Positions 1-54,042 of a stretch of DNA of 64,000 bases are shown here, one piece after another. Each line of letters begins with the position of its first letter. The stretch's first letter is position 1. Below the pieces are notes generated by a model. The model saw only the letters and a list, made by a program, of their open reading frames with translations, searched no databases and was not told the DNA's origin. The DNA comes from Streptomyces fradiae. Lineage in GTDB: Bacteria; Actinomycetota; Actinomycetes; Streptomycetales; Streptomycetaceae. The position numbers were made by a program, and so were the translations under genes. The stretch is from the NCBI RefSeq assembly GCF_041270065.1, contig NZ_CP065958.1, positions 5,704,001 through 5,768,000 of the forward strand, in the 5' to 3' direction.

Positions 1-2044
1 CCCCTGGGGGGTGCGCCGGCACGTCGACCCCGGGCCCGCCGCGGCCCGCGTCCGGCACCCGCACAGCCGCCCGCTCGCCGGCTCGCTCGCCGCGCTCACG
101 CCGTACCTCGCGGCCGCAGTCTGCACCCTGAGCATCCTGTACAACGTCGTCGAGGGCCGCAGCGTCGACCGCGTCGTCGTCCTCACCGGGTGCACGGTCG
201 TGCTCGCCCTCGTCGTCCGGCAGGGCATCATGCTGCTCGACAACATCGCCCTCACCCACGAACTGGCCCAGAAGGAGAACCACTTCAGGTCCCTCGTGCA
301 GGGCTCGAGCGACGTCATCATGATCGCCGCGCCGACCGGCATACTGCGCTACGTCAGCCCGGCCGCCGCCGGGGTGTACGGGCGAGAGGCCGAGGAGCTG
401 ATCGGCTCCGAGCTGGCCTCCCTCATCCACCCCGAGGACCTCGGCGGCGTCGTCCACGAGGTGCGCCGCTTCCTGGCCGCCCCGCCCTCCGAGGAGCCCA
501 CCACCCGGATCGAGTGCCGCTTCCGCTCCGGTCGCGGCGACTGGCTCAACGTCGAGTCCACCGTCAACCGGCACCAGGGCGGGCTGATCTTCAACAGCCG
601 CGACGTCACCGAACGGGTCCGGCTCCAGGCCCAGTTGCGGCACAACGCCGAGCACGACCCGCTCACCGACCTGCCCAACCGGGCGCTGTTCACCGAGCGG
701 GTGCGCGGCGCGCTCAGTGGCCGCCGCGCCACCGACATCGGCACCGCGGTGCTCTTCATCGACCTCGACGGCTTCAAGGCGGTCAACGACCGGCTCGGCC
801 ACCAGGCCGGCGACGAACTCCTCGTCCAGGCCGCCCGCCGGCTCCACGAGTCCGTGCGGGCCGGGGACACCGCCGCCCGGCTCGGCGGCGACGAGTTCGC
901 CGCGCTCATCCTCGGCGACGGCAACCGCGACCGGGCCGACCGCGAGTGCCGGGTGGCCGAGATCGCCGACCGGCTGCGGGTCACGCTCTCCCAGCCGTAC
1001 CGGGTGGACGGCGCCGCCCACGAGGTGCGGGTCGCCGCCTCCATCGGCGTCGCCTTCGCCGAGCCCGGCATCGGCGCGGGCGACCTGCTGCGCAACGCCG
1101 ACCTCGCCATGTACCGGGCCAAGGCCGCCGGCAAGGACCGGGTAGAGCTCTACGCCCCGCAGATGCAGGCCGAGGTGGTGCGCCGCACCGAGCTCGCCGC
1201 CCGGCTGCGCACCGCGCTGCACGACGGCGAGTTCGCCCTGCTCCACCAGCCCGTGGTCGACCTGAGCACCGGCCGGATCGCCGCCGTCGCCGCCCAGGCC
1301 CGCTGGCGCTCCGCGCAGGGCATCCTCTTCACGCCGGCCGAGTTCCTGCGGGTCGCCGAGGACGGCGAGCGCACCGCCGAGCTCGGCCGCTGGCTCTTGG
1401 AGGAGGCCGTCGAGCAGGCCGCCGAGCGGGCCGGAATCGGCCATCGCGCCCCGGTCACCGTGCGGCTCTCCGCCCGCCGGCTGCTCGACCGCTCGCTGCC
1501 GCTGGGCTCCGTCGAGTCGCTGCTCACCCGGCACGGGCTGCCCTCCGGCTCGCTGATCGTCGAGCTCGCCGACAGCGACCCCCGGGACCCCCGGGTCTCC
1601 TTCGACGAGCTGGAGCAGCGCCTGGCCGCCCTGCGCCGGCTCGGCGTCAAGATCGCCCTCGACGGATTCGGCAGCGGACATGCCGCGATCAACGCCCTGC
1701 GGCGGCTTCCGGTCGACATACTGAAGCTGGACCGCGGCCTGGTCGAGGGCATCGTGGAATCGGCCAGACTGCGCAAGATCACCAGCGGGCTGCTCCGCAT
1801 CGCCGGCGACCTCGGGATGCAGTCCGTCGCCGACGGCGTGGACATGCCCGAGCAGGTGCTGGCGCTGCGCTCCATGGGCTGCACCCACGGCCAGGGCATG
1901 GCGTTCTCCGGCCCGCTGGACGAGTACCGGCTGCGCCGGGCGCTGGTGCGGGACGAGTATCCGCTGCCCGGAGCGGTCGCGGTCAGCGCCGGAAACCGGC
2001 CGCCCACCCGCTCACATGATGAGACGCCTGTCCCACCTACTTGA
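1..2044 (+). CDS. PAS-GGDEF-EAL protein (diguanylate cyclase), 5' end outside window
   Basis: The frame is open to the window edge, so the N-terminus is missing; an in-frame GTG lies at 11 and residues are counted from it. Two hydrophobic segments (about 25-50 and 55-78) are followed by a PAS/PAC domain (about 94-200), a GGDEF domain and an EAL-type domain (about 385-640). The GGDEF motif is intact at 292-296, and an RxxD inhibitory site (RAGD, 283-286) sits exactly five residues upstream, so cyclic-di-GMP synthesis with product inhibition is likely. The EAL domain has lost its signature: AQARW stands where EALxRW is expected, and LDGFG where LDDFG is expected, so phosphodiesterase activity is unlikely. 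Position before ilvB matches SCO5511, which I recall as the CdgC orthologue; that name is not proven here. Confidence 0.9.
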   Translation, partial: PWGVRRHVDPGPAAARVRHPHSRPLAGSLAALTPYLAAAVCTLSILYNVVEGRSVDRVVVLTGCTVVLALVVRQGIMLLDNIALTHELAQKENHFRSLVQGSSDVIMIAAPTGILRYVSPAAAGVYGREAEELIGSELASLIHPEDLGGVVHEVRRFLAAPPSEEPTTRIECRFRSGRGDWLNVESTVNRHQGGLIFNSRDVTERVRLQAQLRHNAEHDPLTDLPNRALFTERVRGALSGRRATDIGTAVLFIDLDGFKAVNDRLGHQAGDELLVQAARRLHESVRAGDTAARLGGDEFAALILGDGNRDRADRECRVAEIADRLRVTLSQPYRVDGAAHEVRVAASIGVAFAEPGIGAGDLLRNADLAMYRAKAAGKDRVELYAPQMQAEVVRRTELAARLRTALHDGEFALLHQPVVDLSTGRIAAVAAQARWRSAQGILFTPAEFLRVAEDGERTAELGRWLLEEAVEQAAERAGIGHRAPVTVRLSARRLLDRSLPLGSVESLLTRHGLPSGSLIVELADSDPRDPRVSFDELEQRLAALRRLGVKIALDGFGSGHAAINALRRLPVDILKLDRGLVEGIVESARLRKITSGLLRIAGDLGMQSVADGVDMPEQVLALRSMGCTHGQGMAFSGPLDEYRLRRALVRDEYPLPGAVAVSAGNRPPTRSHDETPVPPT

Positions 2045-2077
2045 CAGTGACAGTGCGTCGGGGGGAGGGTCAGTGCC

Positions 2078-2119
2078 ATGCGCACCCGAATTCTCGTACT
2101 TGGACAGCGCGTCGGCTGA
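2078..2119 (+). CDS. ilvB leader peptide (MRTRILVLGQRVG)
   Basis: This 13-codon reading frame has a strong ribosome site (GGGGGAGGG, 2061-2069) eight bases before its ATG. It contains the consecutive codons Ile-Leu-Val-Leu and a further Val near the end. It lies about 145 bases before ilvB and is followed by a hairpin with a T-run. That is the layout of classical transcription attenuation by branched-chain amino acid supply, which comparative work has predicted before actinobacterial ilvB genes. The peptide is inferred to be regulatory only, with no function as a protein. Confidence 0.8.
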   Translation: MRTRILVLGQRVG

Positions 2120-2161
2120 GGCAGGCCAAGGAAGGCCCGCCTGAAACGCACCCGACGCGCT

Positions 2162-2195
2162 CCCCTCGCTTGCCTATCGGCACGGGGGGTTTTTT
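2162..2195 (+). terminator. ilvB attenuator terminator
   Basis: CCCC (2162-2165) can pair with the G-run 2184-2189, with an inner TGCC/GGCA stem (2171-2174 / 2179-2182) and loop TATC. A run of six T follows at 2190-2195. The stem is imperfect and asymmetric. An alternative antiterminator with the region 2120-2160 is plausible but I have not folded it. Confidence 0.6.
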
Positions 2196-2264
2196 GTTGC
2201 ACCGGATCACCCCGAAGTCGTACCAAACCCTCGCAAAAACCTCTGCTTCGAGAAGAGAATGCTG

Positions 2265-4112
2265 ATGACCGAGCAGGCCACCGGGCACCATCCGCAGCCG
2301 CGGACCCGTAGCGGCGCACAGCCCGCCACCACCGTCGAGCACGTCACGGGTGCGCAGTCCCTCATCCGCTCTCTCGAGGAAGTGGGCGCCGACACCGTCT
2401 TCGGCATTCCGGGCGGCGCGATTCTCCCGGCGTACGACCCGATGATGGACTCGAAGCGGGTCCGCCACATCCTGGTCCGCCACGAGCAGGGCGCGGGCCA
2501 CGCCGCCACCGGTTACGCGCAGGCCACCGGCAAGGTCGGCGTCTGCATGGCGACCTCGGGCCCCGGTGCGACCAACCTGGTCACCCCGATCGCCGACGCC
2601 CACATGGACTCCGTCCCGCTCGTCGCGATCACCGGCCAGGTCTCCTCCAAGGCGATCGGCACCGACGCCTTCCAGGAGGCGGACATCTGCGGCATCACGA
2701 TGCCGATCACCAAGCACAACTTCCTGGTCACCCGGGCCGAGGACATCCCGCGGACCATCGCCGAGGCCTTCCACATCGCCGCCACCGGCCGCCCCGGCCC
2801 GGTCCTGGTCGACATCGCCAAGGACGCCCTCCAGGCGAAGACCACCTTCAGCTGGCCGCCGCAGACCGAGCTGCCCGGCTACCGCCCGGTGACCAAGCCG
2901 CACGCCAAGCAGATCCGCGAGGCCGCCAAGCTGATCACCGCCGCCAAGCGGCCCGTCCTGTACGTCGGCGGCGGCGTCCTGAAGGCCGGCGCCACCGCCG
3001 AGCTGAAGGTCCTCGCGGAGCTCACCGGCGCCCCGGTCACCACCACCCTGATGGCCCTGGGCGCGTTCCCCGACAGCCACCCGCTGCACGTGGGAATGCC
3101 CGGCATGCACGGTGCGGTCACCGCCGTCACCGCGCTGCAGAAGGCCGACCTGATCGTCGCCCTCGGCGCCCGCTTCGACGACCGCGTCACCGGCAAGCTG
3201 GACAGCTTCGCCCCGTACGCCAAGATCGTCCACGCCGACATCGACCCGGCGGAGATCGGCAAGAACCGCACCGCCGACGTCCCGATCGTCGGCGACGCCC
3301 GCGAGGTCATCGCCGACCTGGTCCAGGCCGTCCAGGCCGAGCACAGCGACGGCCACAAGGGCGACTACACCGCCTGGTGGAGCGACCTGAACCGCTGGCG
3401 CGAGACCTACCCGCTCGGCTACGACCTGCCGGAGGACGGCAGCCTCTCGCCGCAGCAGGTCATCGAGCGGATCGGCAAGCTCGCCCCCGAGGGCACGATC
3501 TTCGCCGCCGGCGTCGGCCAGCACCAGATGTGGGCCGCCCACTTCATCGACTACGAGCAGCCCGCGACCTGGCTCAACTCCGGCGGCGCCGGAACGATGG
3601 GCTACGCGGTCCCGGCCGCCATGGGCGCCAAGGCCGGCATGCCGGACCGCACGGTCTGGGCGGTCGACGGCGACGGCTGCTTCCAGATGACCAATCAGGA
3701 GCTCACCACCTGCGCCCTGAACAACATCCCGATCAAGGTCGCCATCATCAACAACGGTGCCCTCGGCATGGTCCGTCAGTGGCAGACCCTCTTCTACAAC
3801 CAGCGCTACTCCAACACGGTCCTGCACTCCGGCCCGGAGGACATCAACCCGGAGGCCAAGGGCACCCGCGTCCCGGACTTCGTGAAGCTGTCCGAGGCCA
3901 TGGGCTGTGTCGCCCTGCGCTGTGAGGACCCGGCCGACCTGGACAAGGTCATCGCCGAGGCCAACGCCATCAACGACCGCCCGGTCGTGATCGACTTCAT
4001 CGTCCACGAGGACGCGCAGGTCTGGCCGATGGTCGCCGCCGGCACCTCGAACGACGAGGTCATGGCCGCCCGGGGCGTCCGCCCCGACTTCGGCGACGGC
4101 GAAGACGACTGA
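2265..4112 (+). CDS. ilvB: acetolactate synthase large subunit
   Basis: Catalyses the first common step of Val/Leu/Ile synthesis: two pyruvate to 2-acetolactate, or pyruvate plus 2-ketobutyrate to 2-aceto-2-hydroxybutyrate, with ThDP, Mg and FAD. The product is 615 residues, normal for the family. The ThDP-activating Glu is in [13 protein letters not shown] (about residue 74), and the ThDP/Mg motif GDGCFQM...NN starts near residue 468. The N-terminal 30 residues are a non-conserved extension typical of Streptomyces. I place the start at ATG 2265, 7-8 bases after GAGAAGAG; an ATG two codons earlier (2259) is too close to that site. It is first in ilvBNC and ilvN follows after 36 bases. The attenuator at 2078-2195 should control it. 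Confidence 0.97.
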
Positions 4113-37637: not shown

Positions 37638-40019
37638 GTGCCCGTCTGGTCCCGCCGCACCTTCCTGACCACCACCTCCGCTGCCGCTGCTGCCGCCGCA
37701 GCAGTCCTAGCCCTCGCACCGCAGGCCCAGGCCGCCACGGCCGAGGGCACGGACGCCGACTCGGACTCGGCCGAGTTCGAGACGCTGCGGCGGCGCTGGC
37801 TCGACCTCCAACTCGGCTCCGGCTACGACGCCGCGGCCGAGCCCTACGCCTCCCGGCTCGCCGAGACCGGCACCCTCGCCCGCGGCTTCCGCGCCGCCAT
37901 GGCCCCCACCGCCACCACCCTCTGGCCCGGCGTCCCCTTCGACCCGCCCGCCGGCATCACCCAGAGCTACGGCCGGCTGTGGACCATGACCCAGGCGTAT
38001 GTGCAGGAGGGCACCGGCTCCACCGGCGACCCGGCGCTCCTCGCCGACGTCCTGCGCGGCCTCGACCACCTCTCCGAGCGGGTCTACCGGAGCGGTGCTC
38101 CGCGCTACGGCAACTGGTGGGAATGGCAGATCGGCTCCCCGCGGATCCTCATGGACATCGTCGCCGCGCTCCACCCGCTGCTCGGCGCCGAGCGGATCGC
38201 CGCCGCCTGCGCCGCCGTCGACCACTTCGTCCCCGACGTGACGCTCGGCTCGTACACCGGCACCTCCACCGGCGCCAACCGTGTCGACCTGTGCCGCTCG
38301 GTCGCCCTGCGCGGGGTCCTCGGCGCGAGCCCCGCCAAGATCGCCCTCGCCCGGGACGCGCTCTCGCCCGTCTTCCCGTACGTCACCAAGGGCGACGGCC
38401 TCTACGCCGACGGCTCCTTCGTCCAGCACACCTGGGTCGCCTACTCCGGCACCTACGGACAGGTCATGCTCGACGGCCTCGGCCGGCTCTTCACCCTGCT
38501 CGCCGGATCCAGCTGGGCCGTCATCGACCCGAACCGGCAGATCATCCTCGACAGCGTCGAACGGGCCTACGCGCCCTTCCTCTACGACGGCCTGATGATG
38601 GACAGCGTCAACGGGCGTGCCATCAGCCGCGGTTACCTCAAGGGCGACGAGCGGCAGATCATGCGCTCCGACCACTTCCACGGCCAGGGTCTGATCGCCG
38701 CGATCGCGGTGCTCGCCGGCGGCGCGAGCCCCGCCGAGCGGGACCGCTGGCACGCGCGCGTGAAGGGGTGGATCGAACGCGACACGGTCACCCCGATCCT
38801 CGAAGCCCGCCAGTTCGGCGTCGCCGACCTCGCCCGGCTCCGCGCCATCGCCGACGGCCCCGCCCCCGCCGCACCCGAACCCACCGGCCACCGTCTCTTC
38901 GCCGCCATGGACCGGGCCGTGCACCGCCGCCCCGGCTGGGCCGCGAACATCTCCATGGCCTCCGAGCGGATCACCCACTACGAGTGCGGCAACGGAGAGA
39001 ACCCGCGCGGCTGGCACACCGGATCCGGGATGCTCTCCTGGTGGACGAAGGGTCAGGGCGGCCAGTACACCGACTGGTTCTGGCCCACCGTCGACCCCTA
39101 CCGGCTGCCCGGCACCACCGTCTCCACCAAACGCCTCGCCGACCGCGCCGGCGGCGAGTGGGGCGCGCCCCGGCCCGCCGTGAAGTGGGTGGGCGGCGTC
39201 ACCGACGGCGAGTTCGCCGCCGTCGGTCAGCACCTCAAGGGCCTCGGCTCCACCCTGGAGGCCCGCAAGTCCTGGTTCTGCGCGGCGGACACCGTCATCT
39301 GCCTGGGCGCCGGCATCACCGCGAAGGACGGCGTCCCGGTCGAGACGATCGTCGACAACCGCTGCCTGGGGGAGGGAGGCACCGCCGCGCTGACCACCGG
39401 CGACGGCTGGGCCCACCTGGCCGGCCACGGAGGCTGGGTCTTCCCCCGCCCCGGCGGCGCCGGCCCCGATGGCGCCGCGGACCTGCGCACCCTGCGCGAG
39501 GACCGCACCGGCGCCTGGAGCGACATCAACACCACCAGCTCCACCGAGCGCCGCACCCGCCGCTACCAGACCCTCTGGTTCGACCACGGCACCGACCCGG
39601 CGGACGCCTCGTACGCCTACCTCCTGATGCCCGGCGCCGGCGTCCGCACCCTCGCCGCCCGCGCCGCCGACCCCGGCTGGCTGCGGATCCTCGCCAACCG
39701 CGCCGAGCTCCAGGCCGTCCGCGTCCCGTCCCTCGGACTGACCGCCGCCAACTACTGGCGCGCCGGTACGGTGGACCGGCTCACCGCCTCCGCCCCCGCG
39801 AGCGTCCTGCTCCGCCGGACGGGGACCACCGCGACCCTGCGGACCGCCGAGCCGATGCGCTCAGGACAGCCCTACGAGCTGCGCTGGGACCGGCCGGTCC
39901 GGGCGGTGCTCGCCCGGGACGCGTCGGTCGAGGTGCTGGCCGCCGGGACGGGCGGGCTGCGGCTGCGGATCACCCCGGGGACGGCCGGGGCGGGCCACCG
40001 CTGCGACGTGCTGATGTGA
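37638..40019 (+). CDS. secreted polysaccharide lyase family 8 (hyaluronate/chondroitin/xanthan lyase type)
   Basis: A 793-residue secreted enzyme that cleaves uronic-acid polysaccharides by beta-elimination. The N-terminus has a twin-arginine signal (SRRTFLTTTSAAAAAAAAV, about 4-35). The alpha/alpha-toroid catalytic domain has Asn214 (GANRVDLC), His264 and Tyr273 (QHTWVAYSGTYG). Their spacing, 50 and 9 residues, equals that of the pneumococcal hyaluronate lyase triad N349/H399/Y408. A beta-sandwich follows. GTG 37638 has GGGAGG five bases upstream. The 16-bp palindrome upstream suggests sugar control. The stop codon lies in a short tandem repeat (40005-40037). Confidence 0.92.
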   Translation: MPVWSRRTFLTTTSAAAAAAAAVLALAPQAQAATAEGTDADSDSAEFETLRRRWLDLQLGSGYDAAAEPYASRLAETGTLARGFRAAMAPTATTLWPGVPFDPPAGITQSYGRLWTMTQAYVQEGTGSTGDPALLADVLRGLDHLSERVYRSGAPRYGNWWEWQIGSPRILMDIVAALHPLLGAERIAAACAAVDHFVPDVTLGSYTGTSTGANRVDLCRSVALRGVLGASPAKIALARDALSPVFPYVTKGDGLYADGSFVQHTWVAYSGTYGQVMLDGLGRLFTLLAGSSWAVIDPNRQIILDSVERAYAPFLYDGLMMDSVNGRAISRGYLKGDERQIMRSDHFHGQGLIAAIAVLAGGASPAERDRWHARVKGWIERDTVTPILEARQFGVADLARLRAIADGPAPAAPEPTGHRLFAAMDRAVHRRPGWAANISMASERITHYECGNGENPRGWHTGSGMLSWWTKGQGGQYTDWFWPTVDPYRLPGTTVSTKRLADRAGGEWGAPRPAVKWVGGVTDGEFAAVGQHLKGLGSTLEARKSWFCAADTVICLGAGITAKDGVPVETIVDNRCLGEGGTAALTTGDGWAHLAGHGGWVFPRPGGAGPDGAADLRTLREDRTGAWSDINTTSSTERRTRRYQTLWFDHGTDPADASYAYLLMPGAGVRTLAARAADPGWLRILANRAELQAVRVPSLGLTAANYWRAGTVDRLTASAPASVLLRRTGTTATLRTAEPMRSGQPYELRWDRPVRAVLARDASVEVLAAGTGGLRLRITPGTAGAGHRCDVLM

Positions 40020-40223: not shown

Positions 40224-41807
40224 ATGACCGTTGTGGACCAGATCCCGAGCGAGCCCGCCGACGCCCGTGGCCGTGTGGCCGAGCTGCACGAACTGCGTGA
40301 GCAGGCGCGGCGCGGCCCGAGTGACCGTGCGACCGAGGCGCAGCACGCGAAGGGCAAGCTCACCGCGCGCGAGCGGATCGAGCTGCTCCTGGACCCGGGT
40401 TCCTTCCAGGAGGTCGAGCAGCTGCGCCGGCACCGCGCCAGCGGCTTCGGCCTGGAGGCCAAGAAGCCGTACACCGACGGTGTCATCACCGGCTGGGGCA
40501 CGGTCGAGGGCCGCACGGTCTTCACCTACGCGCACGACTTCCGGATCTTCGGCGGTGCCCTGGGCGAGGCCCACGCCACCAAGATCCACAAGATCATGGA
40601 CATGGCCATCGCGGCCGGTGCGCCGCTGGTCTCCCTGAACGACGGCGCCGGCGCCCGTATCCAGGAGGGCGTCTCCGCCCTCGCCGGCTACGGCGGCATC
40701 TTCCAGCGCAACACCAAGGCCTCCGGCGTCATCCCGCAGATCTCCGTGATGCTCGGCCCGTGCGCCGGCGGCGCCGCCTACAGCCCGGCCCTCACGGACT
40801 TCGTCTTCATGGTCCGCGAGACCTCGCAGATGTTCATCACCGGCCCGGACGTCGTCAAGGCGGTCACCGGCGAGGAGATCACCCAGAACGGACTGGGCGG
40901 TGCCGACGTGCACGCCGAGACCAGCGGCGTGGCGCACTTCGCGTACGACGACGAGGAGACCTGCATCGCCGAGGTGCGGTACCTGCTGTCGATGCTGCCG
41001 CAGAACAACCGCGAGAACCCGCCGGTCGTCGCCTCCGAGGACCCGGCGGACCGCCGCTCCGACGTGCTGCTCGACCTGGTGCCGGCCGACGGCAACCGCC
41101 CGTACGACATGCACAAGGTCATCGAGGAGCTCGTCGACGAGGGCGACTACCTGGAGATCCACGAGCGCTGGGCCCGCAACATCATCTGCGCCCTGGCCCG
41201 GCTCGACGGCCAGGTCGTCGGCATCGTCGCCAACCAGCCGCAGTCCCTCGCCGGTGTCCTTGACATCGAGGCCTCCGAGAAGGCCGCCCGCTTCGTGCAG
41301 ATGTGCGACGCCTTCAACATCCCGATCATCACTCTTCTGGACGTACCCGGCTTCCTGCCTGGTGTAGACCAGGAGCACGGTGGAATCATCCGGCACGGCG
41401 CGAAGCTGCTGTACGCGTACTGCAACGCGACCGTGCCCCGGATCTCGCTGATCCTGCGCAAGGCCTACGGCGGCGCGTACATCGTGATGGACTCCCAGTC
41501 CATCGGCGCCGACCTGACGTACGCCTGGCCCACCAACGAAATCGCGGTCATGGGCGCCGAGGGCGCCGCGAACGTGATCTTCCGCAAGCAGATCGCGGAG
41601 GCCGAGGACCCCGAGGCGATGCGGACGCGCATGGTCAAGGAGTACAAGGCCGAGCTGATGCACCCGTACTACGCGGCGGAGCGCGGCCTCGTCGACGACG
41701 TCATCGACCCCGCCGAGACCCGCGAGGTCCTTGCCAAGTCCCTTGCGATGCTCCGCACCAAGCACGCGGACCTGCCGTCCCGCAAGCACGGCAACCCGCC
41801 GCAGTAA
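40224..41807 (+). CDS. accB: acyl-CoA carboxylase carboxyltransferase (beta) subunit
   Basis: Transfers CO2 from biotin (on a separate AccA subunit) to acetyl-CoA or a short acyl-CoA, giving malonyl-CoA for fatty acids and polyketides. The 527-residue crotonase-fold protein has the oxyanion glycines in MLGPCAGGAAYSPAL and KAYGGAYIVMDS. The residue that sets substrate in this family (Asp422 in propionyl-specific PccB) is Ile in GGAYIVM, which agrees with an acetyl-CoA-accepting AccB. ATG 40224 is used; accE follows after 62 bases. Confidence 0.95.
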   Translation: MTVVDQIPSEPADARGRVAELHELREQARRGPSDRATEAQHAKGKLTARERIELLLDPGSFQEVEQLRRHRASGFGLEAKKPYTDGVITGWGTVEGRTVFTYAHDFRIFGGALGEAHATKIHKIMDMAIAAGAPLVSLNDGAGARIQEGVSALAGYGGIFQRNTKASGVIPQISVMLGPCAGGAAYSPALTDFVFMVRETSQMFITGPDVVKAVTGEEITQNGLGGADVHAETSGVAHFAYDDEETCIAEVRYLLSMLPQNNRENPPVVASEDPADRRSDVLLDLVPADGNRPYDMHKVIEELVDEGDYLEIHERWARNIICALARLDGQVVGIVANQPQSLAGVLDIEASEKAARFVQMCDAFNIPIITLLDVPGFLPGVDQEHGGIIRHGAKLLYAYCNATVPRISLILRKAYGGAYIVMDSQSIGADLTYAWPTNEIAVMGAEGAANVIFRKQIAEAEDPEAMRTRMVKEYKAELMHPYYAAERGLVDDVIDPAETREVLAKSLAMLRTKHADLPSRKHGNPPQ

Positions 41808-41869: not shown

Positions 41870-42073
41870 GTGACCACGCCTGCCACAGCCAACCTGCTCC
41901 GGGTCGAGAAGGGCCACGCCGACCCCGAGGAGCTCGCCGCCATCACCGCGGTCCTCCTCGCCCGCGCCGCGGCCCAGCCCGCCGAGCCGGCCGCCCACCA
42001 CCGTCCCCGCACCGCCGGCTGGCGCCGTCTGGAGCGCGAGAACGGCTTCCGCGCCCCGCACAGCTGGCGCTGA
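41870..42073 (+). CDS. accE: acyl-CoA carboxylase epsilon subunit
   Basis: A 67-residue activating subunit that binds the AccA-AccB complex. The N-terminal RVEKGHADPEELAAITAVLLARAAA is the family helix and the C-terminus GWRRLERENGFRAPHSW is conserved. GTG 41870 has GAGGAG (41855-41860) nine bases upstream. It lies directly after accB and the pair ends at a strong terminator, so it is a two-gene operon. Confidence 0.92.
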   Translation: MTTPATANLLRVEKGHADPEELAAITAVLLARAAAQPAEPAAHHRPRTAGWRRLERENGFRAPHSWR

Positions 42074-42089
42074 CGCACGGACCGACGGC

Positions 42090-42130
42090 GAAGGGCCGGA
42101 CCCCCGGGAACACCCGGGGTCCGGCCCTTC
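42090..42130. terminator. strong bidirectional terminator
   Basis: GAAGGGCCGGACCCC (42090-42104) pairs perfectly with GGGGTCCGGCCCTTC (42116-42130), with a further CCC/GGG inside. It separates accBE from the convergent kinase operon. Confidence 0.9.
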
Positions 42131-42167
42131 GCCGTGTCCGTAGCCGTGTGTGCCGCCGGCACGGGCG

Positions 42168-43607
42168 TCAGGAGACCAGCGCCCCGATCAGCGCGACGAT
42201 CCCCCAGACCACCCCGACCAGGATGGCCAGCGCCCCCACGATCAGGGTGATCGCGAGCGCGATGTCGCCCTTGGTCAGCGGGTCCGGCTTCTGCGCGTGC
42301 GCGGGCGTCGGCGAAGGCGGCGAGGGCGGTGCCGCCGGGGGCGGCGGGGGCGGCGGAGCGGAGGCCTTCGCGGACGCCGACGGCCGCGCCGACGCGGAGG
42401 CGGACGCCGAGGCCGAAGCCGATGCCGATACGGACGCGGACGCCGAGGCGGACGCCGAGGCCGAATACGACGCCGAGGCGGACGCGCCGGGGGCCCGGAC
42501 CCGGGTCCCGCCGCCCCCGGTGAAGGGGTCCGGGTGGCCCTTCTCCGCGTGCGCGCACCACGGGCAGGCCCGCAGATGCCCGCCGTAGTGGTGCTCCGGC
42601 ACCTCGCCGCACACCACCACGGACTCCTTCGCCTCGTCCAGGGCCTGCAGCCAGGCCGCCGAGGACGGCCGCCGGGCGGGCTCGCGCCAGCCGGGCCCGA
42701 AGGTCTGCCGGGCCAGCCGCAGCACCTCCGGCGGCAGCGTCTCGACCGGCAGCTGCCGGCGCGGCACCCGCACCCGGTCCGGATGCACCAGGAAGGAGTT
42801 CCCGGCGAGCACGTTGTCCTTGCGGGTGGACTCGGCCGCACCGACCCGCGGGCTCCCGTCGTACGGATGGTTCCCGCTGGTCAGCAGCTGGTAGACGAGG
42901 ACCGCGAGCGCGAAGTCGTCCGAGTGCCGGGTCGGCGGCCCGCCGCGGTGCCGCTCGGGTCCCGCGTAGTCGTCGGTGAAGACGTCGCTGCCGAAGAACT
43001 CACCGGTCAGCGGGTCGGTGAAGGCGAAGGAGTCGCAGTCGAGCAGGGTGACATAGCCCTTCGGGTCGACCACCGCGTTCGCGCTGGACAGATCGCCGAC
43101 CACATAGCCGCGCTGGTGCAGCTCCGCCGTCATGTACGCGAGGTTGGACGCCACCCCGAGCAGGAAGCCCCAGTGCGCCCGGCCCTGGTACTGGCTGCGC
43201 CGCACGTTCTTCTGCAGCAGCCCGCTGAGCCGGACGTGCGCCGCCGGGTCCAGGATCGGCATCCCGTACCCGACCGGCCGCCCCGCCGACTCGATCAGCT
43301 GCACCGGCCACACCAGCATCGGCGGCTGCCCGGCCGCGAGTTGCTCCCCGGCCAGCGGGTCGGCGCGCAGCATCGCGGCGAGCCGACGCAGCTGGGCCGC
43401 GTCGGGCGGCCGGTTGTAGATCTTGCCGGCGAGGTCGGCGCGTTCCGCGAAGGCCCAGACGCTGCCCTGGCCGCCGGTGCCGAGGGGCTTGCCGGTGCGG
43501 CTGATCCGGGTGCCGTCGCCGAGCGTCAGGTCCACGGGGTCGGTGAGGGAGTCGTCGTCGCCGGAGTCGGAGCCGGTGCCGGCGCCGGTGCCGTCAGTGG
43601 TCGTCAT
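42168..43607 (-). CDS. atypical Ser/Thr kinase of the YegI / TerY-P type
   Basis: A 479-residue protein, last of the six-gene operon. The kinase domain (about 30-320) has a Gly-rich loop GTGGQGSV (43-50) and Lys62, but its catalytic loop is VGDLSSAN (Asp172, Asn177) instead of HRDLKPxN, and DFG is DCD (190-192). E. coli YegI is an active kinase with such altered motifs. Cys333, Cys348, Cys351 and His353 (CPWCAH) form a zinc knuckle. A long Ala-Ser repeat (about 375-412) and a Pro-rich stretch lead to one C-terminal membrane segment (about 452-475). Its start overlaps the PP2C gene by 14 bases. Confidence 0.87.
   Translation of the reverse strand: MTTTDGTGAGTGSDSGDDDSLTDPVDLTLGDGTRISRTGKPLGTGGQGSVWAFAERADLAGKIYNRPPDAAQLRRLAAMLRADPLAGEQLAAGQPPMLVWPVQLIESAGRPVGYGMPILDPAAHVRLSGLLQKNVRRSQYQGRAHWGFLLGVASNLAYMTAELHQRGYVVGDLSSANAVVDPKGYVTLLDCDSFAFTDPLTGEFFGSDVFTDDYAGPERHRGGPPTRHSDDFALAVLVYQLLTSGNHPYDGSPRVGAAESTRKDNVLAGNSFLVHPDRVRVPRRQLPVETLPPEVLRLARQTFGPGWREPARRPSSAAWLQALDEAKESVVVCGEVPEHHYGGHLRACPWCAHAEKGHPDPFTGGGGTRVRAPGASASASYSASASASASASVSASASASASASASARPSASAKASAPPPPPPPAAPPSPPSPTPAHAQKPDPLTKGDIALAITLIVGALAILVGVVWGIVALIGALVS
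42358..42492 (-). repeat. hexanucleotide-like minisatellite encoding Ala-Ser repeat
   Basis: Within the kinase gene the plus strand runs as repeated GACGCC/GAGGCC-type units of 6 bp, encoding (Ala-Ser)n linker sequence between the kinase/zinc part and the membrane anchor. Such tracts can change length by slippage in steps of two residues. Confidence 0.75.
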
Positions 43608-44460
43608 GTCGTATCGCCCACAGGAGAGTCTTGTCGTCCCCGGTCACTCGGGAGATCTGGTCGGAGGCGAGGAATTCCGCGAGCCGGCGGTCCTCCTCGT
43701 CGTGGTCGTAGCCGTCCCGGCCGAGCCGTTCGAAGAGATGGCCGAGGAAGGCGTCGTGCGGCAGCGGCGGCCCGGCGGGGGAGCGGCGGAGCAGGGCGTG
43801 CGTGAGCCCGTCCGTGGACAGCAGCACCCCTTCGATCCGCGGGTCGCGGACACAGTCCACCCGCAGCTGCCCGAGCGCGGTCGGCGAGCCGAGGAAGACG
43901 GTCTCGTTGGCGTACTCGCTGCCGGAGTGGGTCTGGGGGAGCAGATGGTACGAGGCGGGGCCGGGCGGCGAGGCCGTGTCCCCGCCACCGGGCGGGCGCT
44001 CGTCCGGCACCCCGCCCTCCGCCCGCAGCAGCACCAGGCCGTCGCCGATCGACACCTGGCCCAGCCAGCCCTCCGCGGCCACCACCACGGTGAGGGTGGT
44101 CGCGAACGGGGCGGCCGGGCCCGCGCACCAGGTCAGGAACTCGGCCCGGACCTCGCGGAAGGCCTCGGTCAGCAGCTCCCTGCGCTCGTGCGGGTCGTCC
44201 CCGCGCCGCCAGGGCGCGGCGACCGGGGCGAAGGCGTCCACCGCGAGCTCCACCGCCACCCGCGCGCCCTCGCCGGAGCGTTCGGCGCTGCCCGCGCCGT
44301 CCGCCACCGCCAGGACCAGACCGCCCGGGACCTCCCGGTGCTTCCAGGCGTCCTGGCAGGGCTTGTCGTCCCGCAGGTGCCGGTAGCCGGTCGCGCTGAT
44401 CCCGTGCACCCGCCAGCGGTGGGCGGGCCGGCCCCGCCGGCTCGCCCCGCCGGGGCTCAC
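43594..44460 (-). CDS. PP2C-type protein phosphatase
   Basis: A 288-residue metal-dependent phosphatase. Family motifs are WRVHGISATGYRHLRDDKPCQDA, AVADGAGSAERSGEGA (Asp54 metal ligand) and LLSTDGLTH, with GDDKTLL near the end. GTG 44460 overlaps the VWA stop codon (GTGA), so the two are coupled, and its own end overlaps the kinase start. In the TerY-P triad, the phosphatase opposes the partner kinase. Cytoplasmic, without membrane segments. Confidence 0.9.
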   Translation of the reverse strand: MSPGGASRRGRPAHRWRVHGISATGYRHLRDDKPCQDAWKHREVPGGLVLAVADGAGSAERSGEGARVAVELAVDAFAPVAAPWRRGDDPHERRELLTEAFREVRAEFLTWCAGPAAPFATTLTVVVAAEGWLGQVSIGDGLVLLRAEGGVPDERPPGGGDTASPPGPASYHLLPQTHSGSEYANETVFLGSPTALGQLRVDCVRDPRIEGVLLSTDGLTHALLRRSPAGPPLPHDAFLGHLFERLGRDGYDHDEEDRRLAEFLASDQISRVTGDDKTLLWAIRHDDH

Positions 44461-45287
44461 GCCGGGACCTGCCCGCCGCCGCGCCGGCGCTTCAGCCGGG
44501 CGAAGATCTCCTGGAACTCGGCCTCGTCGGCACCGCCCTGGGTGGCGCGGGCGCTGTGCGACATCGCGGTGAGCAGCTCGGCGAACGGGAAGCCGTCCAG
44601 CCAGGCGTGGTAGTGCGGGGCCAGCTCCTTGAGGACCTCCTCGGCCCCGGCGTGCCGCTCGCCGACGCCGACCGCGAAGAGCCGGAAGCGGCGCTCCTCC
44701 TCGGCCTTGCGCAGCTCGGGCAGCAGATCCCGGTACGCGTGCGAGAAGCGGCCCTGCTCGTCGCTGGGCGCGCCGTCCGTGACCACGCAGATCTGCGGCC
44801 GGTAGTAGGTGAGGCCCTCCTCGCGCAGCCCGGCCTTGTAGTCGGCGACGACCTCCATGGCGAGCCGCAGCGCCCGGTCCATCAGGGTCACGCCGTGCGC
44901 GCGCAGCGCCGGCGGCCGGAACTCGTGGGCCGGTACGAACGGGCTGTGCGGCCAGCGCGGGGCGAGCGCGCCCAGCGGGGTGGCGCCCTGCCAGACGGTG
45001 ATGCCCTCGGTGCCGCCGAAGGTGATGAGGGCGACGTCCACGGCGGCGCTGAGCGCGGTGTCCTCGGCGAGGCTCCCGGCCCAGGAGTCGAGGGCGTCGT
45101 TGAGCGCGCCGATCGCGCCGCTCTGGCTGAGCGACGAGGAGGTGTCCAGGCACAGCAGCAGCGGCAGCCGCTGGGCGCTGTCGAACTCGAAGCCCATGTA
45201 CGGCACGGGGAGCGGGGCTTCGTCGGGACTTGCGGTCGGGTACACGGCTACTCCGGCGTGCGAGGGCGGAACGGGGACGGTGAGCAT
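44457..45287 (-). CDS. VWA-domain protein (TerY/YegL-like)
   Basis: A 276-residue von Willebrand A domain protein. The MIDAS motif is DTSSS (48-52) in LLCLDTSSSLSQSGAIGALNDAL, with the Thr in VTLMDRAL and the Asp in VVTDGAPSDEQG completing the metal site. This matches TerY/YegL, the VWA member of the triad with PP2C and kinase, and it probably serves as the scaffold or substrate. The N-terminal 30 residues are extra. ATG 45287, 48 bases after the OB-fold gene. Confidence 0.9.
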   Translation of the reverse strand: MLTVPVPPSHAGVAVYPTASPDEAPLPVPYMGFEFDSAQRLPLLLCLDTSSSLSQSGAIGALNDALDSWAGSLAEDTALSAAVDVALITFGGTEGITVWQGATPLGALAPRWPHSPFVPAHEFRPPALRAHGVTLMDRALRLAMEVVADYKAGLREEGLTYYRPQICVVTDGAPSDEQGRFSHAYRDLLPELRKAEEERRFRLFAVGVGERHAGAEEVLKELAPHYHAWLDGFPFAELLTAMSHSARATQGGADEAEFQEIFARLKRRRGGGQVPA

Positions 45288-45335
45288 GCTTCGGGTGTGC
45301 GTCAGGAGAGCGAAAGGTCCAGGAGAGCGGGGAGT

Positions 45336-46199
45336 TCAGTGGAGCGGGGAGGCGATGAGCAGCGGCGGGTCGGTGTCCGGCGACGCGGTGACCCGGACCA
45401 GGTCCCCGGGGCGCGGGTAGGCCGTCGCGGGGCCGCGCCAGCGGGCCCGGCACAGGGCGCCGTCCCACTCCACGTACCCGTCGGGGCGCAGCCAGGTCGC
45501 GGCGGTGACGACGGCCCGGTAGCCGGTGCCGAGGGCGAGGGTGTCGGACTCGCGCGCGGCGGCCGTCGCGGCGGCGGCCCGGTACACGGTCCCGGGCCCG
45601 GCGGCCGGCTCCGGTGCGGGTGCGGGCGGCGGCTCCGGCTTCGGCACCGGTGTCGGCTCCGGCTCAGGAGCGGGCTCCGGCGCCGGCCGCCAGCCGCTCG
45701 GCAGTTCGGGGGCCCGGGGCGCGGGCGGCAGCGCCGCGGGCGGTCCAGGCGCGGGAGCGGGAGCTCCGGGAGCGGGGGCCGGTGCGGGCTCCTGCCCCGG
45801 AGGCGTCGGGGCCGTCGGGGCCGTACGGAACGGCAGCAGCCCGGCCGCCGCGTCGAGCGCGGTGTCGAGGGCGTCGCCGAGGACCGCGCGCGAGTTGGAC
45901 ACCATCCACCGGACGTCGTCCTGCAGCCGGGGGTGGGCCGCCCGCTCCGTCCGCGGCCGGGCGCCCCGCCCCTCCCGGGTCCCGTCCTGCTCGGGCATCG
46001 GCGCCTCCTCGGACAGGGACTCGGACTCGGACGCGTACGCGGAAGGGGCCTCGGGCGTGGCCGGTGCCTCGTGCCGCGGCTCCGGCTCCTCGGGGCGCCG
46101 GGAGCCGGAGAACCAGGAGCCGGTGCTCGCCCACAGCGCGAGCAGCAGGGCCGTCGGCGGCAGCACCACGAAGGTGAGGATCAGCGCGGAGGTCTCCAC
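45336..46199 (-). CDS. membrane protein with Pro-rich linker and NfeD-like OB domain
   Basis: A 287-residue protein. A transmembrane helix at the N-terminus (SALILTFVVLPPTALLLALWAST) is followed by about 170 residues of Pro/Ala/Glu-rich sequence and then an NfeD-type OB-fold (about 225-285; AVVTAATWLRPDGYVEWDGALCRARW...GDLVRVTASPDTDPPLLIASPL). I chose GTG 46199, four bases after the upstream stop with GGAG eight bases before it; ATG 46226 would overlap that gene. In the operon it may bring the module to the membrane. Confidence 0.72.
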   Translation of the reverse strand: METSALILTFVVLPPTALLLALWASTGSWFSGSRRPEEPEPRHEAPATPEAPSAYASESESLSEEAPMPEQDGTREGRGARPRTERAAHPRLQDDVRWMVSNSRAVLGDALDTALDAAAGLLPFRTAPTAPTPPGQEPAPAPAPGAPAPAPGPPAALPPAPRAPELPSGWRPAPEPAPEPEPTPVPKPEPPPAPAPEPAAGPGTVYRAAAATAAARESDTLALGTGYRAVVTAATWLRPDGYVEWDGALCRARWRGPATAYPRPGDLVRVTASPDTDPPLLIASPLH

Positions 46200-46203
46200 G
46201 GGC

Positions 46204-46680
46204 TCACTCCGGCGAGGCGAGGTCATCGGAGCTCCGCAGCACGAAACCCAGGTCGTGGCACTCCCGCAGCAGCCGCACCGAGCGGTCGAGCAGCGCGTCG
46301 AGGGTGGTCGCGAACCCGGTGGCCGTCAGATGGCAGACCAGCGGCAGCGCGAGCACCGCGGAGAGCAGCGGTTCCTCGCTGCGGGCGTCGCCGAGCACCG
46401 CCGCCGGCGTCACCTCGTGGGCGTTCCACGCGGTCGCGGCGGCCGCCGTCGGGGCCAGCCGGTCCGAGGGGACGAGCGTCCCGTCGGTGACGGCCACCAC
46501 CAGCGAGCCGGCGGCCCGGCTGATGTCCACGGTGAGCCGGGGCCCGGACGGGTCGCCGGTCCTGGTCTCCAGGAAGAGGGCGCCGTCCTCGGTCTGGACC
46601 GGCTCGCCGCGGCGGCGCGCCCATTCCCGTACCAACGACTCCCAGCCGTCGCGCAGTTCGACCACGGGCTCAGGGCTCAC
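46204..46680 (-). CDS. YbjN / T3SS-chaperone-like protein
   Basis: A 158-residue soluble protein without membrane segments. The sequence pattern (VELRDGWESLVREWARRRGEP, then a beta-rich middle and LLSAVLALPLVCHLTATGFATTLDALLDRSVRLLREC) resembles the YbjN fold of the type III chaperone superfamily, which commonly binds partner proteins. The assignment is from look only. GTG 46680 overlaps the upstream kinase stop by 11 bases. Confidence 0.6.
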   Translation of the reverse strand: MSPEPVVELRDGWESLVREWARRRGEPVQTEDGALFLETRTGDPSGPRLTVDISRAAGSLVVAVTDGTLVPSDRLAPTAAAATAWNAHEVTPAAVLGDARSEEPLLSAVLALPLVCHLTATGFATTLDALLDRSVRLLRECHDLGFVLRSSDDLASPE

Positions 46681-47671
46681 GGTGCAGCACCGCCTTCCGG
46701 ATCAGCGGACGGGACAGCCCGGCCGCGAGCAGCCGCGCGGCGACCGGGCGCAGCGCGCAGCCCCCGCCGGCGGCCGGCGGCACGGGGGCGTGGCAGTGGT
46801 GCGGGGGATCGGCGACCGGGACGGTCGGCGGGTGCGGCGGCTTCGGCACCGGACGCCCGGCCCCCGGCGGGGGCTTCAGGAGCGCCCCGAGCTCCGCCAT
46901 CAGCTCGTCCGGACCGGGCCGGTCGGCCGGGGCGGGGGCGAGGCAGGAGCGGACGACCCCGGCGAGCGCGGCCGGTACACCGGTGAGCCGGGGCGGCACC
47001 CCCTGGTAGATCCGCAGGGTGGCGGGAAGGCCGTGCCCGAAGGGCAGCAGGCCGGTGGCGGCGAAGACCAGGACGACCCCGAGCGCGAACACGTCGACGG
47101 CGGGCGTCGGTTCGCCGCCGCGCAGGCTCTCGGCCGGGATGAAGCCGTTGGTGCCGGGTGGCGACATCGGGTCGGTCAGACCCCGGGTCCAGCTGTCGGA
47201 GCGGACGATGCCGAAGTCGATGAGCCGCGGCTCGCCGTCCTCCAGGATGATGTTGCTGGGCTTGAGGTCCCGGTGGATCAGCCCGTGGGCGTGCACCCCG
47301 GCCAGCGCCTCGGCGAGCATCGCGCCCAGCTCGGCGACCCGCCGCTCGGGCAGCGGCCCCCGCTTGCGCACGTGCTGGTCGAGGGTGGGGCCCTCCACGT
47401 AGCGGGAGGCGAGCCAGTACGGCGGGGTGAGCGTCTCGGCGTCGTACAGCGGGAGGGTGTACGGGCTGCGCACGTCGCGCAGCGCCTCGACCTCGCGGTG
47501 GAACCTGATCCGCCCGGCCCGCGAGTGCGCGAGCTCGGCGCTGATCACCTTGACCGCCAGGCGTAACCCGGCGGGGGTGCGGCACAGATAGACCTTGCCC
47601 ATCCCGCCGTTGCCCAGCGTGCGTTCGACCGTGAAGCGGCCGATCCGGCGCGTACCGTCCAGCGAACCCAT
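46670..47671 (-). CDS. canonical Hanks-type Ser/Thr protein kinase
   Basis: A 333-residue cytoplasmic kinase with all catalytic motifs: GNGGMGKV (20-27), Lys41, Glu60, HRDLKPSN (133-140) and DFG (152-154). The activation loop is short and the C-terminal 80 residues are Pro/His-rich with no membrane segment, unlike PknB. First gene of the six-gene operon. It is upstream of a second, atypical kinase (42168-43607), so the operon encodes two kinases and one phosphatase. Confidence 0.93.
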   Translation of the reverse strand: MGSLDGTRRIGRFTVERTLGNGGMGKVYLCRTPAGLRLAVKVISAELAHSRAGRIRFHREVEALRDVRSPYTLPLYDAETLTPPYWLASRYVEGPTLDQHVRKRGPLPERRVAELGAMLAEALAGVHAHGLIHRDLKPSNIILEDGEPRLIDFGIVRSDSWTRGLTDPMSPPGTNGFIPAESLRGGEPTPAVDVFALGVVLVFAATGLLPFGHGLPATLRIYQGVPPRLTGVPAALAGVVRSCLAPAPADRPGPDELMAELGALLKPPPGAGRPVPKPPHPPTVPVADPPHHCHAPVPPAAGGGCALRPVAARLLAAGLSRPLIRKAVLHREP

Positions 47672-47736: not shown

Positions 47737-47774
47737 TCGGGGATCACATGCGGAGTTCGGGGATCACATGCGGA
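47737..47774. repeat. 18-bp direct repeat, period 20
   Basis: TCGGGGATCACATGCGGA occurs at 47737-47754 and again at 47757-47774. It lies between the start of the kinase operon and the terminator of the conservon, so it may be a regulator binding array or a duplication. Confidence 0.75.
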
Positions 47775-47809
47775 AGGCCGCGTCCCGGAACGGGAACGCG
47801 GCCTTCCGC
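47770..47809 (-). terminator. conservon 2 terminator
   Basis: GCGGAAGGCCGCGT (47770-47783) pairs perfectly with ACGCGGCCTTCCGC (47796-47809). It starts about 17 bases after the CvnD stop codon on the minus strand. Confidence 0.85.
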
Positions 47810-47826: not shown

Positions 47827-48408
47827 CTACCGCAGGCGGGCCATGAGGGCGTGCTCGACCAGCGTGATGAGCGCGCTCTTGGCGTCCGCGCGGTGGCGGG
47901 CGTCGGTGGTGATGATCGGGGTGTCGGGACCGATCTGAAGGGCCTCGCGGACCTCCTCCGGCTGGTACGGCTGGTGGCCGTCGAAGCCGTTGAGGGCGAT
48001 GACGAAGGGGAGGCCCGAGTTCTCGAAGTAGTCGACCGCGGGGAAGCAGTCGGCGAGCCGCCGGGTGTCCACCAGGACGACGGCGCCGATGGCACCGCGC
48101 ACCAGGTCGTCCCACATGAACCAGAAGCGGTCCTGACCGGGCGTACCGAAGAGGTACAGGATCAGGTCCTGGTCCAGGGTGATGCGGCCGAAGTCCATGG
48201 CGACAGTCGTCGTCGTCTTGTCGCCCGTGTGGGTGAGGTCGTCGATGCCCGCGGAAGCGGACGTCATGACGGCCTCGGTTCGCAGCGGGTTGATCTCCGA
48301 GACCGCGCCGACGAACGTGGTCTTGCCCACGCCGAAGCCGCCCGCCACCACGATCTTCGCGCTGGTGGTTGAACGGGCCGCGCCGCCGCTAGAGCTTGCG
48401 AAGTCCAC
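47827..48408 (-). CDS. cvnD: conservon GTPase CvnD (second copy)
   Basis: A 193-residue small GTP-binding protein. The P-loop is GGFGVGKT (about 22-29), with DFGRI and GTPGQDRFWFMW as the G3 region; the usual NKxD is NGFDG. CvnD is thought to cycle under control of the CvnA-C complex and to signal to regulators of development or metabolism. It is last in the conservon and overlaps CvnC by 20 bases. It is 90% or more like the other CvnD at 53067 by eye. Confidence 0.95.
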   Translation of the reverse strand: MDFASSSGGAARSTTSAKIVVAGGFGVGKTTFVGAVSEINPLRTEAVMTSASAGIDDLTHTGDKTTTTVAMDFGRITLDQDLILYLFGTPGQDRFWFMWDDLVRGAIGAVVLVDTRRLADCFPAVDYFENSGLPFVIALNGFDGHQPYQPEEVREALQIGPDTPIITTDARHRADAKSALITLVEHALMARLR

Positions 48409-53066: not shown

Positions 53067-53654
53067 CTACTTCAACCGCGCCATGAGGGCGTGCTCGACG
53101 AGGGTGATGAGCGCGCTCTTGGCGTCCGCGCGGTGGCGGGCATCGGTCGTGATGATGGGAGCGTCCGGCCCGATCTGCAGCGCCTCGCGCACCTCGTCCG
53201 GCGTGTAGGGCTGCTGCCCGTCGAAACCGTTGAGCGCGATGACGAAGGGGAGGCCCGAGTTCTCGAAGTAGTCGACCGCGGGGAAGCAGTCGGCGAGCCG
53301 CCGGGTGTCCACGAGCACCACGGCGCCGATGGCACCGCGGACCAGGTCGTCCCACATGAACCAGAAGCGGTCCTGACCGGGCGTACCGAAGAGGTACAGG
53401 ATCAGGTCCTGGTCCAGGGTGATACGGCCGAAGTCCATCGCCACGGTGGTGGTCGTCTTGCCACCGGTGTGCGTCAGGTCGTCGATGCCCGCCGAGGCGG
53501 ACGTCATGACGGCCTCGGTCCGCAGCGGGTTGATCTCGGAGACGGCGCCCACGAACGTGGTCTTGCCCACGCCGAACCCGCCGGCCACCACGATCTTCGC
53601 GCTGGTGGTCGAACGGGCCGCGGAGGCGGGGCCGCTAGAGCTTGCGAAGTCCAC
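53067..53654 (-). CDS. cvnD: conservon GTPase CvnD (first copy)
   Basis: A 195-residue GTPase nearly identical to the CvnD at 47827 over its whole length; differences cluster at the N-terminus (SSSGPASAARS against SSSGGAARS) and around NGFDGQQPYTPDEV. The P-loop GGFGVGKT and GTPGQDRFWFMW are intact. It overlaps CvnC by 20 bases, as in the other copy. Together with the neighbouring genes it is probably the Cvn1 locus. Confidence 0.95.
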   Translation of the reverse strand: MDFASSSGPASAARSTTSAKIVVAGGFGVGKTTFVGAVSEINPLRTEAVMTSASAGIDDLTHTGGKTTTTVAMDFGRITLDQDLILYLFGTPGQDRFWFMWDDLVRGAIGAVVLVDTRRLADCFPAVDYFENSGLPFVIALNGFDGQQPYTPDEVREALQIGPDAPIITTDARHRADAKSALITLVEHALMARLK

Positions 53655-54042
53655 TGAGCACCCTTTCGAGCAGTGTCACGTCCGGCGTGCCGCCGGCCTC
53701 TCCGTTGCCCGGCTGGTGGATGGCCACCATGCCCGCCTCGGCCAGGTCGGCCACGAGGATGCGGGCGACGCCGAGCGGCATCGACAGGAGCGCCGACACC
53801 TCGGCCACCGACTTGACCTCACGGCAGAGGTGGCAGATCCGCTGGTGCTCCGGCAGCAGGGTGGCCAGATGCGCCGGGTCGGCCGTGGTGCTGACCAGCG
53901 CCTCGATGGCGAGCTGGTAGCGCGGCCGGGTCCGGCCGCCGGTCATGGCATAGGGCCGGACCAGCGGCTGGTCGCCTTCCGCTCCGTACGGCTCGTCTAT
54001 CGATGTGCCGTACGGATCGTGAGAGGCGGGGGGCGGGGTCAT
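53635..54042 (-). CDS. cvnC: conservon DUF742 protein CvnC (first copy)
   Basis: A 135-residue DUF742 protein, 46 residues shorter than the copy at 48389 because it lacks the Gly/Gln-rich N-terminal extension. The core VRPYAMTGGRTRPRYQLAIEALVSTTADPAHL and SMPLGVARILVADLAEAG is shared. GGAGG lies four bases before ATG 54042. A 198-base gap, wider than in the other copy, separates it from CvnB. Confidence 0.94.
   Translation of the reverse strand: MTPPPASHDPYGTSIDEPYGAEGDQPLVRPYAMTGGRTRPRYQLAIEALVSTTADPAHLATLLPEHQRICHLCREVKSVAEVSALLSMPLGVARILVADLAEAGMVAIHQPGNGEAGGTPDVTLLERVLSGLRKL

Follow-up and report, generated by a model that had tools for sequence, protein, structure and literature searches.

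A 64,000-nucleotide stretch of Streptomyces fradiae DNA (contig NZ_CP065958.1, positions 5,704,001 to 5,768,000; hereafter the window) carries on its minus strand, at 42168-47671, an operon of six packed open reading frames (ORFs), three of which encode homologues of the Escherichia coli proteins YegL, PphC (YegK) and YegI. Judged by sequence this is real homology, and the triad is a core of the TerY-P type. The reading we prefer, held at roughly even confidence, is that the operon encodes an accessory phosphorylation switch tethered to the membrane, in which the TerY-P/YegI-PphC-YegL module is extended to six parts and which probably serves in stress or defence.

In 5' to 3' order the operon comprises kinase 1, a canonical Ser/Thr kinase (46670-47671); gene 2, encoding a small protein of predicted YbjN fold (type III secretion chaperone-like; 46204-46680); gene 3, encoding a membrane protein whose C-terminal domain is best seen as NfeD-like (45336-46226); a VWA protein, the YegL homologue (44457-45287); a PP2C phosphatase, the PphC homologue (43594-44460); and kinase 2, a membrane-anchored atypical kinase of the YegI type (42168-43607). 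Each ORF is open from an ATG or GTG to a stop codon, with an ambiguous start for the VWA protein (45287 or 45206), and adjacent genes overlap by 4 to 23 nt apart from a single gap of 48 nt. The same genes are found in the same order at three kinds of chromosomal place, so the arrangement is not due to chance. Among the six proteins, only kinase 1 and the PP2C protein gave strong Pfam matches. Because matches to the remaining four were weak or lacking, the identities of kinase 2, the VWA protein and the products of genes 2 and 3 were examined separately.

The annotated E. coli proteins of locus L193 served as references for the core triad. Kinase 2 is 30% identical to YegI over 334 alignment columns (BLASTP, E 2e-37), the phosphatase is 30% identical to PphC (E 6e-17) and the VWA protein is 31% identical to YegL (E 5e-24); the order VWA-PP2C-kinase is also identical. 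The phosphatase matches Pfam PP2C_2 (E 1.7e-38), and its residues D37, D54-G55, D140, D217-G218 and D275-D276 are invariant in all eight aligned proteins. The VWA protein matches VWA_2 below the cutoff (E 0.006) and has a complete MIDAS, in which D48, S50, S52, T134 and D171 are invariant in 16 of 16 relatives and in the five sequences of an alignment that includes YegL. Kinase 2 likewise matches Pkinase below the cutoff (E 4e-5). It contains K62, a GDLSSAN motif and an LDCDS (DCD) motif, and K62, D172, D190 and D192 are invariant (16/16 relatives; 5/5 with YegI included), as is a knuckle of the form C333-x5-H339-x8-C348-x2-C351, containing CPWC, in the same two sets. At the level of the motif this knuckle corresponds to a putative C-terminal zinc-binding module. 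An Ala-Ser linker is followed by one C-terminal membrane helix predicted from hydropathy (residues 449-467), which is also present in nearly all six-gene loci compared, the exceptions being a frame-broken record (L023, identical to L180) and one cut by a contig end (L170). The earlier note, made from the DNA sequence of the window, had placed a six-gene operon at 42168-47671, had likened the VWA, PP2C and DCD/CPWC kinase genes to TerY-P or YegL-YegK-YegI, and had described a membrane anchor after an Ala-Ser repeat. The ORFs, the BLASTP matches, the shared residues and the helix agree with it on each of these points, and the knuckle extends beyond the CPWC that it recognised.

Kinase 1 matches Pkinase strongly (E 1.1e-37, residues 13-259). 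Its HRD and DFG motifs are intact and occur in every homologue compared, and the sole hydrophobic stretch flagged by hydropathy (191-209) falls within the kinase domain. The window copy of the gene 2 product has no Pfam match. Its AlphaFold model (mean pLDDT 77.4, pTM 0.76) was compared by Foldseek, and the top seven chains were those of E. coli YbjN and AmyR (E 5e-5 to 1e-3), from which a YbjN fold is predicted. Four of 11 gene 2 family members match the Pfam YbjN family at E <= 1 (best 1.5e-4), the window copy not being among them, and a single member scored individually reached 18.9 of 22 bits, below the cutoff. Gene 3 encodes an N-terminal membrane helix (residues 13-31, from hydropathy), a long Pro-rich linker and a C-terminal domain that is conserved across 25 loci. 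The window protein matches NfeD below the cutoff (E 0.027, 15.1 of 29.1 bits), and 16 of 45 relatives of the type found beside pckG match it at E <= 0.1 (best 2.3e-4), so that NfeD-like is the best description of this OB-type domain at present. A profile of the gene 3 relatives gave two matches to sequences in the PDB (E 0.43 and 1), both in signal or transmembrane stretches, which were judged meaningless. The earlier note had assigned a canonical Hanks kinase, a YbjN-like protein and a membrane OB-fold protein to the upstream half of the operon. The kinase is confirmed by Pfam, the YbjN-like protein by the predicted structure and the membrane part of the third protein by hydropathy; its OB part is recast here as NfeD-like, below the Pfam cutoff in the window.

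Gene 3 differs between sites. Beside pckG it encodes a signal or transmembrane segment, a domain with a predicted ClpP-like fold, a second transmembrane segment and the NfeD-like domain; the window protein has no such ectodomain. In an alignment (A7) of one such gene (L034, 10459-11403) with 44 relatives, the predicted secreted ClpP-like domain has four conserved cysteines, and the inferred position of the nucleophile is occupied by E, Q, G or A, never by Ser, in 45 of 45. The domain thus appears to lack the serine nucleophile, and the pckG-site protein looks receptor-like, with a predicted ClpP-type ectodomain. Its string of domains resembles that of long-form NfeD proteins (1510-N type), from which it differs in the residue at the nucleophile position, in its conserved cysteines and in the lack of an SPFH gene in the operon. 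The window protein differs from the long form in having no ClpP-like ectodomain.

Several known systems resemble the operon in part. E. coli YegI shares the C-x5-H-x8-CPWC motif and is reported to be membrane-bound; it has a long additional C-terminal region, unlike kinase 2. The E. coli module adjoins yegD, annotated as a chaperone, whereas the window operon has no Hsp70 gene and adds kinase 1 and the YbjN-fold and NfeD-like genes to the triad. An E. coli plasmid record has an IS1 element between pphC and yegI of a yegL-pphC-yegI-yegD segment (L193, 1796-2493). According to PMC13232886, conditions promoting the expression of YegI and PphC had yet to be defined. TerY-P, a triad associated with defence and CoCoNuT systems, is described as a VWA protein with a PP2C phosphatase and a kinase bearing a C-terminal zinc ribbon, OB-fused versions of which are antiphage systems (PMC11090510; PMC7699616). 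The window triad has the same composition, including the zinc-binding-type motif at the kinase C-terminus. In some antiphage versions the OB-fold is fused to the kinase (PMC11090510), whereas in the window an OB-type domain lies on a separate membrane protein; the six genes also include no restriction gene, but do include an extra kinase and a YbjN protein. PADLOC gave the window proteins no match to a TerY-P-specific model, and the same was true of E. coli YegL and PphC, which matched no model, and of YegI, which matched kinase-domain models only, so that this negative is without a usable positive control. Among the six proteins PADLOC gave kinase-domain matches and one weak PP2C match (E 0.017). 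A kinase-PP2C-vWA theme has also been described for conflict systems built on GAP1-N2 GTPases (PMC7159879, section 29), in which a kinase with a zinc ribbon or a transmembrane segment occurs with an adjacent PP2C and a standalone vWA in actinobacteria. The window proteins have no DO-GTPase or GAP1 Pfam match at E <= 1, and YbjN and NfeD are not mentioned in the main text of that paper. The titles and beginnings of abstracts listed by text searches of the open-licence literature contained no description of the six-gene unit, which is weak evidence of its absence there.

The operon is uncommon in Streptomyces. A search with the VWA protein found matches at E <= 0.001 in 19 of 121 genomes, with at least 49% identity in 14 and at least 78% in three, including the source genome. 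Twelve of the 14 have the full six-gene order in the surroundings fetched. The three closest all lie at the site occupied in the window, between accE and cvnD1, so that the operon is present there in 3 of 121 genomes. (The flanking names accB, accE, cvn1/cvnD1 and pckG are those that we presume from sequence.) The YbjN profile matched 32 of 295 Streptomyces genomes, 9 of 150 in the family and 3 of 246 at the level of the class, where one match is weak and falls within an open frame of 616 residues. Because these searches scored only 10 to 26 candidates per genome, the absences are provisional. Judged from the fetched neighbourhoods, 28 of the 32 Streptomyces genomes retain all six genes in order, six at accE-cvnD1, 19 beside pckG, where a second lineage sits, and three elsewhere, counting one in which kinase 2 is cut by a contig end (G419) and one with several frames broken in the record (G454). 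A free separation of the two halves of the operon, which the earlier note named as the observation that would count against a single unit, is for the most part not seen: the other four comprise a genome in which only kinase 1 and the YbjN gene precede the end of the contig (G376), two without kinase 1 and one without the triad. We therefore regard the six genes as one conserved unit, as that note had proposed. Outside Streptomyces, five loci (L181-L185) keep the order. L186 (same genus) resembles the second type, with no VWA gene within the fetched stretch, and L187 is a weak match standing alone. In each of ten further contigs, three of which also belong to the 295 genomes (G380, G421, G454), the operon lies between cvnD1 and accB. 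A tblastn search of 50,697 phage records with the VWA protein gave no match, and among 72,556 plasmid records 50 had distant YegL-type VWA proteins only, at 28-32% identity among the matches listed.

In the window, accB (40224-41807) and accE (41870-42073), which lies between accB and the operon, converge with the operon from its downstream side, and cvnD1 of the cvn1 conservon (47827-48408) lies upstream on the same strand. A hairpin just downstream of cvnD1 marks the upstream edge of the slot (47770-47809, minus strand; -40.8 kcal/mol, z -6.2), and between kinase 2 and accE the downstream edge is marked by a long hairpin (42076-42142; -63.6 kcal/mol, z -9.0 on the minus strand and -62.8 kcal/mol, z -7.8 on the plus strand). 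Inverted repeats matching both are visible by eye in the empty site L081, indicating that the operon is placed where two convergent genes end. In this close pair of sites, the flanks of L081 align with those of the occupied L030 at 93.7% and 95.0%, with 44 nt between them in the one and about 6.2 kb in the other. This is a clean 6.2-kb insertion or deletion, and the operon is present or absent as a discrete block. No exact direct or inverted repeats of 9 nt or more were found between the two block edges in three loci, and a sigma-70 and terminator scan found no element, the edge hairpins having come from folding. Upstream of cvn1 a second conservon copy with cvnD- and cvnC-like genes (53067-53946) occurs, in tandem in many of the relatives fetched, and upstream of accB lies a large protein with a twin-arginine-like signal (37638-40019), which presumably resembles secreted polysaccharide lyases.

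Strong accB matches were present in 112 genomes without the operon at this site, and 80 of these loci were fetched. The distance from accB to cvnD is at most 1.1 kb in 63, which leaves no room for the operon, and 1.8-5.3 kb in nine; four are not convergent, and four have no cvnD match, of which one looks empty (L086) and one is cut by the contig (L222). An accE match is present in 79. The possibility that the operon stands at this place in all Streptomyces with a housekeeping function, raised in the earlier note, is ruled out by these counts and by its rarity at the site. Genes of the NNH1-NACHT (NLR-like) type fill the slot in 3 of 80 (L100, 4536-7598; L110, 6352-9363; L202, 5687-8779). Other cargo among the nine inserts and L222, partly profiled and partly read by eye, includes dihydroxyacetone-kinase-like and MFS genes, methyltransferase and glycosyltransferase genes, LysR and tautomerase genes, and DUF4360. 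Four sites with non-NACHT inserts (L116, L217, L221, L224) group in a single clade when the flanks are treed and so may represent one event. Since the inserts range from NACHT to metabolic, transport, regulator and DUF4360 genes, the slot is a variable locus whose cargo is mixed.

The flank tree has 88 tips, 12 of them occupied; five of 93 sequences, including the occupied L024, were dropped for gaps. Presence and absence require 6 parsimony changes, compared with a mean of 11.5 and a minimum of 8 in 500 shuffles, and a single gain would need 22 losses. An operon tree built without gene 3 has 5 of 9 splits in common with the flank tree, so inheritance is partly vertical only. The data fit a history in which the operon was repeatedly gained, lost or exchanged at this single place. 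The earlier note had suggested that the operon may be a gained module: it is indeed absent from the site in most Streptomyces examined, and the gain itself stays unproven, as loss also fits the tree. At one pckG-site locus (L039) an ORF at 1850-3049, about 3.4 kb from kinase 1, is presumably TnpB-like, resembling the IS605 type.

A role in stress or defence is suggested by context only, namely by analogy with the TerY-P antiphage reports and by reuse of the core alongside Hsp70, dynamin or AAA, caspase and CHAT genes. In L033 (661-18580; neighbours profiled) and L040 (read from sequence starts), genes for two dynamin-like GTPases, a C39-type peptidase, an Hsp70-like protein and YbjN come after those for OB, VWA, PP2C and kinase 2, and the larger operon is divergent from genes for CHAT, caspase-domain and cNMP-binding/Crp-HTH proteins. 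L045 (185-17251) combines the triad with an activase-like radical SAM protein, an AAA ATPase resembling ClpB, Hsp70, a DO-GTPase, CHAT and a weak macro-domain match. It fits the GAP1-N2 theme closely and is likely a conflict system; L044 has, by eye, a similar gene order. Modules of the dynamin-Hsp70-YbjN type occur without the triad in the fetched stretch of L169 (1353-9232), L178 (2195-9501) and L179 (3258-9109), their genes having been read by eye, with the exception in L169 of a GrpE-like gene and a C39-like gene. Two of the 32 YbjN-bearing genomes (G085, G079) lack kinase 1, their OB-VWA-PP2C-kinase 2 genes being accompanied by dynamins, Hsp70 and YbjN. In a third (G510) YbjN alone is present; each of its two copies lies in what appears by eye to be a dynamin-Hsp70-type cluster without the triad. 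The slot itself, with NACHT genes in 3 of 80 sites and metabolic and other genes in the remaining inserts, is weakened as a pure defence hotspot.

In the switch that we infer, the six proteins would form a complex in which the tail-anchored YegI-type kinase would act on a set of substrates and the PP2C phosphatase would counteract it on that same set. The VWA protein would be a metal-dependent assembly partner, kinase 1 would prime or amplify the signal and the YbjN-fold protein may be an adaptor or chaperone. The NfeD-like membrane protein would dock the complex through a cytoplasmic OB-type domain, and at the pckG site its predicted ClpP-like outside domain could make it a receptor. An envelope cue or a phage product would then shift the balance of kinase and phosphatase, leading to phosphorylation of host targets. 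We also put forward, tentatively and with the larger doubt on its side, a further-reaching version: a new class of transmembrane phospho-relay in which a receptor derived from NfeD, with a dead ClpP-like domain as its outside sensor and an OB domain for docking inside, gates the triad through the YbjN adaptor and the second kinase, forming a stand-alone envelope-sensing immune or stress system. If so, the lineage in the window would be the form without the outside sensor.

The strongest mechanistic rival, unlikely in our view, is a type VII phosphorylation toxin-antitoxin of the KKP kind, in which the kinases would be jointly toxic, PP2C would be the antidote, block of PP2C by a phage protein would lead to growth arrest, and the VWA, YbjN and membrane proteins would be regulators. 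According to the KKP report, PfkA and PfkB are toxic when expressed together, PfpC neutralises this pair and the modules defend against lytic phages; they were searched for as triplets of neighbouring genes, and 70 of 114 lay near mobile genes (PMC11341870). The window operon likewise sets two Ser/Thr kinases against one PP2C (PF13672) in one operon that is present or absent as a discrete block, and kinase 1 matches the PADLOC mad6 and PD-T4-6 kinase models, though these are kinase-domain matches only. Its layout is nevertheless different, since in the window, as in the six-gene loci examined, three conserved genes, further partners in their own right, stand between kinase 1 and the PP2C and kinase 2 genes, so that no triplet of neighbours exists, and the second kinase is of the YegI type. 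A mobile gene was seen by eye in one fetched relative only, the presumed TnpB-like ORF of L039, the flanks having had no mobile-gene profiling.

A regulator of membrane quality control or carbon metabolism, which we consider improbable, would account for the NfeD-like domain with its predicted ClpP-like ectodomain and for the pckG-like gene adjoining the operon in 19 genomes; it sits poorly with the lack of an SPFH (stomatin/flotillin) domain among the six proteins by Pfam, with the absence of the inferred nucleophile, with an accB lineage that is not beside pckG and with a rare, accessory distribution. Least probable of all is a developmental or metabolic signalling partner of the neighbouring cvn1 conservon, inherited together with it: the operon does lie on the strand of cvnA1-D1, immediately after cvnD1 in every occupied accB-site locus seen, but a hairpin parts the two, the 63 cvn1/accB sites mentioned above have no room for it, and the pckG-like site has no cvnD or cvnB within the fetched stretch.

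Read as a phosphorylation switch, the operon offers a conserved six-part version of the YegI/PphC module with defined membrane and adaptor partners, and together with its natural empty sites this makes the role of that module testable. The relatives that bear an ectodomain are candidates for the input of TerY-P-type switches, which are known from antiphage and predicted conflict systems.

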